From IMG/VR virus record IMGVR_UViG_3300027675_000030, positions 1 through 22,131 of that record: 22,131 bases of DNA; one strand, 5' to 3'. The stretch is from a virus. Shown here in pieces: positions 17,987 to 19,253 of the stretch. The notes under the pieces are model-generated. The model did no database searches, was not told the DNA's origin, and saw nothing but the letters and a program-made list of their open reading frames with translations. Made by a program: the position numbers and the translations under genes. Numbering within the stretch: position 1 is the stretch's first letter; every line of letters starts with the position of its first letter.

Positions 17987-18421
17987 ATGTATATGAAAAC
18001 AGTATTAGAAATTGCATTGAGTACTAAGTTCAATGCAGAACAAGTTCCTGCAATAATAGAGATACTAGGTAATACACCGAATACAGATGTTGCTGCAGAG
18101 ATAATATTAGGCGTCTATACAGAGCCTACTATCAGTGAGCAGTCTGTACTAGATAACAAACTATGTACATTTGTAATCTACAACAAATGGACTAAAGATG
18201 TAACCTATACATATAATACTGTAAAGAAGAAACAGATATATGTAAACAAAGATGCTGATGAAGACAGTATCACAGTAGAGAACTATGAAGAGCATGTGGT
18301 CAGTAGAAATGGTAAGTATATTACTTTAACATTTCCAAATGAAACAGAAACTGCAAGATCATGGACCCAATTAAGTAGTTGGGAAAATTGTGCATCCAAA
18401 GTAGGACAAATGCAACCATAA
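17987..18421 (+). CDS. Hypothetical protein, 144 aa
   Basis: The N-terminal 45 residues form helices (ALSTKFNAEQVPAIIEILGN, TDVAAEIILGVY). The rest is beta-rich with aromatic and basic strands (CTFVIYNKWTKDVTYTYNTV, then QIYVNKDADEDSITVENYEE), ending in GQMQP. No transmembrane segment, signal peptide or active site is visible. A second ATG two codons on (17993) is equally possible as the start. It is a single-gene cassette, with repeat copy 3 upstream and a terminator beginning in the stop codon. Function unknown. Confidence 0.75.
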   Translation: MYMKTVLEIALSTKFNAEQVPAIIEILGNTPNTDVAAEIILGVYTEPTISEQSVLDNKLCTFVIYNKWTKDVTYTYNTVKKKQIYVNKDADEDSITVENYEEHVVSRNGKYITLTFPNETETARSWTQLSSWENCASKVGQMQP

Positions 18422-18446
18422 AAGGCTTCGGCCTTTTTTGTTTTTA
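18420..18446 (+). terminator. Intrinsic terminator with UUCG tetraloop
   Basis: The stem AAAAGGC/GCCTTTT (18420-18426 with 18431-18437) closes on a TTCG tetraloop and is followed by a T-rich run. It begins inside the stop codon of the 144-residue gene. Confidence 0.9.
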
Positions 18447-18462: not shown

Positions 18463-18479
18463 CTAACCCTTTACTGAAT
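18463..18479 (+). repeat. 17-bp promoter-like repeat, copy 4
   Basis: CTAACCCTTTACTGAAT, preceded by CCCTCTTTCTT. It stands in front of a stretch with no reading frame that ends in its own terminator, so this cassette seems to encode an RNA. Confidence 0.8.
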
Positions 18480-18637
18480 TTGTATTACAATTGTATCTGA
18501 ACTAATGATGATACTATATATGTAATACATATGATGTAACCCAACTATAGGGCATCACCTTATGACTTTGGTGTATAAGACCCAAACAAGGATTAGTCAT
18601 CCAGCAAACAGAACAGGTGCATCCTGTTTTGTTTTTT
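18480..18637 (+). ncRNA. Candidate small RNA in its own promoter-terminator cassette
   Basis: About 155 bases lie between repeat copy 4 and a terminator, with no frame longer than a few codons that could be a gene. The 5' half folds into nested arms: TGTATTAC/GTAATACA (18481-18488, 18522-18529) around GTATC/GATAC (18493-18497, 18510-18514). The middle has a CCC/GGG/CCC arrangement in which GGG (about 18550) could pair with either side, giving two alternative hairpins. The 3' end is a strong terminator. It lies in series with four protein-coding cassettes of the same form. Confidence 0.6.
18606..18637 (+). terminator. Intrinsic terminator of the candidate small RNA
   Basis: A 12-bp stem (18606-18617 with 18623-18634, one G-U pair, TGCAT loop) runs into a T-rich tail (18632-18637). 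Confidence 0.85.
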
Positions 18638-18655
18638 CCAACAACCCTCTTTTTT

Positions 18656-18672
18656 CTAACCCTTAACTTATT
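18656..18672 (+). repeat. 17-bp promoter-like repeat, copy 5
   Basis: CTAACCCTTAACTTATT, preceded by CCCTCTTTTTT. The last five bases differ from the consensus. It lies 38 bases before the start codon at 18711. Confidence 0.75.
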
Positions 18673-18710: not shown

Positions 18711-19139
18711 ATGAAAGCAATTTATGAATCAAATTATGTGCAAGTGAAAGAAGGACCAGGAAAAGGTAAAGTATTTCATGTGTACAGTATTGTGGGCAGT
18801 AAAGATGAACTGAAAGAGTTCACATCATCACCACAGTTTAAGAAGTACCCGAGAACCAATAAGGTTACAGGTGCACCACAATTGGTTACCATGTACATGG
18901 ACCCATTGAGAGATGAACTGCCATTGTACAAGAAAGACTCTGGTGATTTCACCCTAGACGGTAGTGAGACAAGAAAAGATGTGGGCAGATTAGAAGCACT
19001 GGGTAAGATAAGCCCTGCAATGGAATCTGCATTTGCTACCACATTAGTAGCAAGAATGGAAAGACCAAAAGGGTTAATGGAGAGAATGAAAGCAGAGGAG
19101 ACTGCAGAGAGTACACCTGCAGAGCTAGACAAGATCTAG
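18711..19139 (+). CDS. Hypothetical protein, 142 aa
   Basis: The first part is beta-like and Gly/Lys-rich (NYVQVKEGPGKGKVFHVYSI), followed by a segment with charged turns (SSPQFKKYPRTNKVTGAPQL). The second half is acidic then helical (LYKKDSGDFTLDGSETRK, later LVARMERPKGLMERMKAEET). The C-terminal tail is acidic, which is often seen in single-stranded DNA-binding proteins; I note this only as a possibility, because the fold is not evident. Its codons use somewhat more G and C than the neighbouring genes. The gene is a single-gene cassette with repeat copy 5 upstream and a terminator downstream. The minus-strand frame over it is a shadow. Confidence 0.75.
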   Translation: MKAIYESNYVQVKEGPGKGKVFHVYSIVGSKDELKEFTSSPQFKKYPRTNKVTGAPQLVTMYMDPLRDELPLYKKDSGDFTLDGSETRKDVGRLEALGKISPAMESAFATTLVARMERPKGLMERMKAEETAESTPAELDKI

Positions 19140-19200: not shown

Positions 19201-19217
19201 CTAACCCTTTACTGAGT
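19201..19217 (+). repeat. 17-bp promoter-like repeat, copy 6
   Basis: CTAACCCTTTACTGAGT, preceded by CCCTCTTTTTTT. No gene follows; a terminator hairpin begins 6 bases later. Confidence 0.75.
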
Positions 19218-19223
19218 AAGTGT

Positions 19224-19253
19224 GACATAATGCTAAAGCATTATGTCTTTTTT
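19224..19253 (+). terminator. Terminator directly after repeat copy 6
   Basis: A perfect 10-bp stem (GACATAATGC/GCATTATGTC, 19224-19233 with 19238-19247, TAAA loop) is followed by six T. A transcript started at copy 6 would be only about 30 to 50 bases. Confidence 0.85.

Follow-up and report, generated by a model that had tools for sequence, protein, structure and literature searches.

Short structured phage RNAs are, to our knowledge, rarely annotated, and few of them have a known role. The phi29 pRNA, for instance, is small and makes a loop-loop interaction of 4 bp, and phage base-pairing sRNAs and solitary-repeat RNA anti-CRISPRs are short, independently transcribed RNAs that act on host systems. 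In type III toxin-antitoxin systems, the antitoxin is a structured RNA found beside a small gene. GOLLD RNA (RF02032), which is phage-encoded and strongly folded, forms loop-loop contacts and has no known function (PMC12286853).

The RNA described here is encoded on the right arm of a 22.1-kb virus record, analysed over its full length of 22,131 nucleotides (the window), and resembles these systems in part. With GOLLD it shares phage origin, strong folding and loop-loop contacts, but GOLLD is several times longer. With the phi29 pRNA it has in common a small size and a 4-bp loop-loop helix; however, it has no Rfam match and is accessory and exchangeable. Unlike phage sRNAs and RNA anti-CRISPRs, it displays no target complementarity within the window, and its conserved part is a multi-hairpin tertiary fold, whereas a solitary-repeat anti-CRISPR consists of a single repeat hairpin. 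A type III antitoxin was considered and rejected, given that the RNA contains no tandem repeat array, that the flanking genes D and E have no Pfam or PHROG match, and that no shared neighbour could act as the toxin. Rfam 15 searched at the gathering score returned no match over the RNA in the window or in 14 member or relative loci, and with permissive settings the only scores were sub-threshold chance ones of snoRNA-like or tRNA-like type; the Rfam CRISPR repeat families did not match the window's RNA either. A literature search found no paper describing the family. Judged by sequence, therefore, this is a new and unstudied RNA family, the same RNA recurring in many otherwise unlike phages with no match in the public family library.

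The right arm of the window is organized as a row of short cassettes, each opened by the element CTAACCCTKWACT. A window scan located six exact copies on the + strand (starts 17377, 17708, 17940, 18463, 18656 and 19201) and none on the opposite strand, and a reversed-pattern control also gave none. Cassettes 1, 2, 3 and 5 carry small genes of unknown function (starts 17414, 17744, 17987 and 18711). The shared element is presumed to be the phage early promoter; a sigma-70 promoter scan gave a site count not above that of shuffles. Promoter-terminator cassettes among small phage genes near the divergence of two arms are usually expressed early.

The fourth element opens a cassette of 193 bases (18463-18655) that extends until the next element. 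The first-pass annotation, made from the sequence of the window, had credited this cassette with the shared upstream element, a strong 12-bp terminator and no reading frame, and all three features hold (Table 1). There is no usable frame: the longest one starting with ATG has 34 codons, reads through the terminator and is not kept in the close relatives, being shortened to 16 aa in L014, while the longest frame of the L002 cassette is a 19-aa GTG frame at another place. The cassette had also been taken as the only gene-less one of the six, but there are two, since the sixth element opens another. At 19201-19252 the element leads straight into a perfect hairpin of 10 bp (GACATAATGC/GCATTATGTC) with a T run behind it and no gene, and an arrangement of element plus hairpin (mostly AAATAATGC/GCATTATTT) is kept after gene E in about 20 relatives, bordering a long AT-rich repeat region. 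On its 3' side, this second cassette borders a non-coding AT-rich repeat region of 0.9 kb, which begins about 0.6 kb past the RNA cassette and may be a replication origin.

Table 1. Features of the gene-less cassette at 18463 and of its two neighbouring genes (window coordinates).
Feature	Position	Strand	Remarks
Gene D, upstream neighbour, 144 aa, unknown function	17987..18421	+	own terminator at 18420-18437
Pyrimidine tract and shared cassette element CTAACCCTTTACTGAA	18450..18478	+	one of six same-strand copies; presumed phage early promoter
P1 stem, 9 bp	18481-18489 (TGTATTACA) with 18521-18529 (TGTAATACA)	+	folds in 3/3 distinct close sequences
P2 hairpin GTATC/GATAC, 5 bp	18493-18497 with 18510-18514	+	conserved loop TGAACTAATGAT, 18498-18509
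Conserved core	18544..18605	+	covariance model R1, 61.9 bits
P3 hairpin CACC/GGTG, loop TTATGACTTT	18556-18559 with 18570-18573	+	covariation
Kissing helix, P3-loop GACT with P4-loop AGTC	18564-18567 with 18595-18598	+	covariation
P4 hairpin GGAT/ATCC, loop TAGTC	18590-18593 with 18599-18602	+	covariation
Intrinsic terminator, 12-bp stem and T run	18606..18637	+	18606-18617 with 18623-18634, z = -4.7; presumed RNA 3' end
Gene E, downstream neighbour, 142 aa, unknown function	18711..19139	+	own element at 18656

Two further structural proposals stood in part. The nested perfect arms reported for the 5' half exist, the inner one with 5 bp as described, but the outer arm (P1) measures 9 bp and not 8; P1 is specific to the close relatives, and the wider family differs in both its length and sequence. 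The CCC/GGG/CCC segments (18540-42, 18550-52 and 18581-83) do allow two exclusive hairpins on paper, but the switch is not conserved, because the upstream CCC-GGG hairpin is broken in L002 and the wider family lacks it. The transcript-sized piece of the window folds better than dinucleotide shuffles (z = -2.65, with 3 of 200 shuffles as good), as does that of L002 (z = -2.9). The plain folding energy of the core alone is no better than that of shuffles, so that the case for the fold rests on covariation and not on stability.

Among the close relatives, L001 is 99.9% identical to the window over the region, and L002 about 91% identical over the region and 96% over the cassette. In L014 the RNA body is unchanged, but the terminator has been swapped for a different, longer hairpin terminator that also closes another RNA cassette, found in L030. 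The breakpoint coincides with the 3' end of the structured body, where it would be expected if this body were the functional unit. The RNA body is thus almost constant while the coding genes around it change. The 3' hairpin module concerned, TTAATAGGTAAGGAC...GGAGNACTGCC, serves as terminator of two different RNA families, and it was found only in L014 and in the L030/L031/L041 group.

More distant members were sought with the motif CCTTAN{3,4}CTTTGGN{3,6}TAAGWMC, built from the window, L035 and L013, which revealed the RNA in unrelated contigs. With the covariance model R1 (64 positions, 9 pairs), about 18 distinct members from uncultured environmental phages score 55-87 bits, and other pattern matches reach at most 24 bits; the use of two motif patterns makes this number a lower bound. 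L120 and L126, which came from the second pattern and stood outside model building, score 73 and 75 bits. One credible R1 match each was found in 11 of 14 larger records, the second match of G013 scoring 16 bits. In named phages, blastn gave no match to the RNA. A strict pattern search of bacterial genomes from around 85,000 species gave R1 scores that were uniformly weak, at about 20 bits or below, and no copy was found in 198 bacterial genomes of one class, in a search run without a positive control. Matches of 18-23 bits in the Cellulophaga phages phi4:1 and phi17:2 were dropped as chance, because they are antisense and lie inside coding genes. The capsid protein of the member genome G001 shares 28% identity with that of Leptolyngbya phage Lbo-JY46 and 25%, over part of its length, with those of phi4:1 and phi17:2; together with several open frames of more than 2400 aa, these values place G001 in a large-phage lineage that has no close relatives in culture.

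The genomic setting of the RNA is that of a free-standing gene. The best-sampled members, those of the window-like genomes and of the L049/L060/L074 group, each lie behind the repeated cassette element of their own genome, and this element differs in sequence between the two sets. In the second set it is ACCATTTTWTAACT, of which L074 has 12 same-strand copies and no opposite-strand copy. The same repeat test gave no clear cassette element in L084, L093, L120, L126, L149 and L062. Most members have a terminator at the RNA end, and no neighbour gene common to different phage groups was found. The relatives thus point to an independent RNA gene of about 155 nt, in agreement with the small RNA of about 155 bases originally proposed.

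The family fold comprises the P2 hairpin with its loop TGAACWAATGAT, the P3 and P4 hairpins, and a loop-loop (kissing) helix joining P3 and P4. It was evaluated on an alignment of 16 members, made by hand and verified against every source sequence letter by letter, using our own script (not R-scape) with a null in which substitutions are permuted along the tree; 21 pairs were tested, and the covarying positions had been left unconstrained by the search pattern. Values of E < 0.05 were reached by two P3 pairs (E = 0.0004 and 0.009), one P4 pair and one kissing pair (E = 0.037). The third P3 pair occurs as all four Watson-Crick types over the 16 members with no mismatch, and the same four types, again without mismatch, are found at the second P4 pair (E = 0.002). 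Moreover, the top two of all 3741 column pairs are one P3 pair and one P4 pair. P3 and P4 therefore covary beyond a phylogeny-aware null in related phages, the check the first-pass annotation had called for. The evidence for the other two elements is supportive: the first kissing pair is mismatched in 2 of the 16 members (L049 and L098), and the best two P2 pairs have structure-set E values of about 0.05-0.07. The P2 loop is kept and four inner pairs covary in 11 members, P2 being not alignable in L062, L067, L070, L120 and L126.

The variants themselves illustrate how the pairs are maintained. For P3, the window has CACC/GGTG, L035 has TTGCC/GGCAA, the L049 and L013 groups have TCTCC/GGAGA and L084 has TTCCC/GGGAA. 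P4 reads GGAT/ATCC in the window, GAGT/ACTC in L013, GTCT/AGAC in L084, and GCT/AGC or GCT/GGC elsewhere. The kissing helix is UGCU/AGCA in most members, GGCU/AGCC in L013, L044 and L053, and GACU/AGUC in the window and L002. A conserved reading frame is ruled out because the core carries one-base indels. A short peptide starting from an ATG that lies ahead of the core in several members was likewise rejected, as the frames differ between members in addition to carrying such indels; the window and four other members have the start-stop ATGTAA.

GOLLD deserves separate treatment, being present in two member phages. An Rfam match to it in L070 (1223-1616), outside the window-family RNA, raised the possibility that the window's RNA is the 5' domain of GOLLD. 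This was rejected, since the two are separate conserved blocks in L070 and L149: they adjoin each other in one genome, and in L149 about 1 kb lies between them, containing a terminator hairpin and open frames. The window contains no GOLLD match, and R1 found nothing in the GOLLD loci of Acinetobacter phages. A sub-threshold GOLLD match (121.6 bits, cut-off 150) was also observed on the - strand of G007 (38708-39103), the record of L046, a 115-kb relative.

A survey of phages sharing the cassette element and the downstream gene E showed that the position occupied by the RNA is variable. In L017, L032, L034, L042 and L046, the slot ahead of gene E contains either a small gene or nothing additional. 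It holds the window's RNA family in L035, and the same family lies before gene D in L013, L044 and L053. A second family precedes gene E in L012 and L030, a third in L029, L036, L045, L047 and L157, and yet another gene-less cassette in L040; no Rfam family covers any of these. Of the 48 pairs predicted for the third family (about 230 nt), 15 show compensatory double changes, and two of its hairpin loops are able to pair as UGCAGG/CCUGCA or UACAGG/CCUGUA. The second (L012 5771-5958 and L030 5281-5523) likely forms an H-type pseudoknot, with TTGCCA/TGGCAA in L012 and TTGTCA/TGACAA in L030. The cassette of L040 (5378-5582 as oriented) is gene-less and 205 bases long, has long predicted stems, and is unlike the other three families.

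Given its anatomy, its covarying base pairs, its single copy per genome and its conservation across unlike phages independently of neighbour genes, the existence of this RNA gene and of its fold is highly probable. In the explanation we favour, and which we regard as somewhat probable when taken as a whole, the locus is an independent RNA gene of a new family whose product is an early effector binding a protein in trans. A single transcript of about 155 nt would start just past the shared element and end at the terminator, being transcribed early from the phage cassette promoter. Its core consists of P3 and P4 locked by the 4-bp loop-loop helix, with P2 and its conserved loop lying 5'. This compact folded RNA has no linked gene and would accordingly act in trans. 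In the weakest step of the scheme, the conserved loops TTATTGCTTT, TGTAAGTACC and TGAACWAATGAT would bind a protein belonging to the host or to a host defence, as suggested by the conserved unpaired letters in loops fixed by tertiary contact and by the fact that no antisense target stood out in the window. Taken by itself, this protein-binding role in trans is plausible and put forward with reserve. The RNA could then work as an accessory takeover or counter-defence factor, which suits it better than a function in core replication or packaging because it undergoes non-orthologous exchange with other RNAs and small genes.

The strongest competing idea, although an unlikely one, is that of a base-pairing sRNA regulating host or phage mRNAs through the P2 loop or the single-stranded linkers. 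The conserved loop TGAACWAATGAT and the linkers are indeed exposed, and both size and terminator are typical of bacterial sRNAs; however, the P3 and P4 loops are engaged in the kissing helix, and shuffled RNA is as complementary to the 34 start regions in the window as the loops and linkers are (p 0.24-0.88). Pairing with start regions in the window, one version of the regulator role suggested by the first-pass annotation, is thereby removed.

Improbable, in turn, is a structural or packaging RNA forming oligomers through intermolecular contacts, as in the phi29 pRNA or GOLLD. The covarying 4-bp loop-loop helix could equally form between molecules, and GOLLD does co-occur in member phages, but no Rfam family of this kind matches the RNA, and close relatives (L017, L032 and others) lack it or have something else in its place, as would not be the case for a packaging RNA. 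A cis element, either a leader or attenuator of the next gene or a part of the adjoining replication origin region, has slightly less still to commend it. The proximity of the AT-rich repeat region speaks for such a role, but no long non-coding region of this sort adjoins the RNA in other genomes. A regulatory leader or riboswitch was discarded, given that the RNA has its own terminator, that the next gene has its own element and that the downstream genes are unrelated between phage groups. A decayed protein gene that retained promoter and terminator, suggested by the small genes in all other cassettes except the last, is very improbable, as relatives carry the same fold and lack a longer frame, substitutions preserve base pairs and indels are one base long. 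A degraded, frameshifted gene was seen in none of the relatives examined, and the proposal of a functional RNA instead of a lost gene is strongly supported by the covarying P3 and P4 stems.

In addition to the protein-binding effector reading of the window's RNA, a broader and rather doubtful proposal treats the slot upstream of gene E as an exchangeable site for RNA effectors. Unrelated pseudoknotted families (that of the window, family B in L012 and L030, and family C in L029, L036, L045, L047 and L157) would take each other's place there, next to small early genes, and each would bind a protein of host defence or machinery; if true, they would constitute a new class of phage RNA effectors. 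The window's RNA marks a genomic slot that houses other unlisted RNA families, and it is small enough to be synthesized and tested, with base pairs that can be broken and restored. The effect of early phage RNAs on their hosts thereby becomes a directly testable question.
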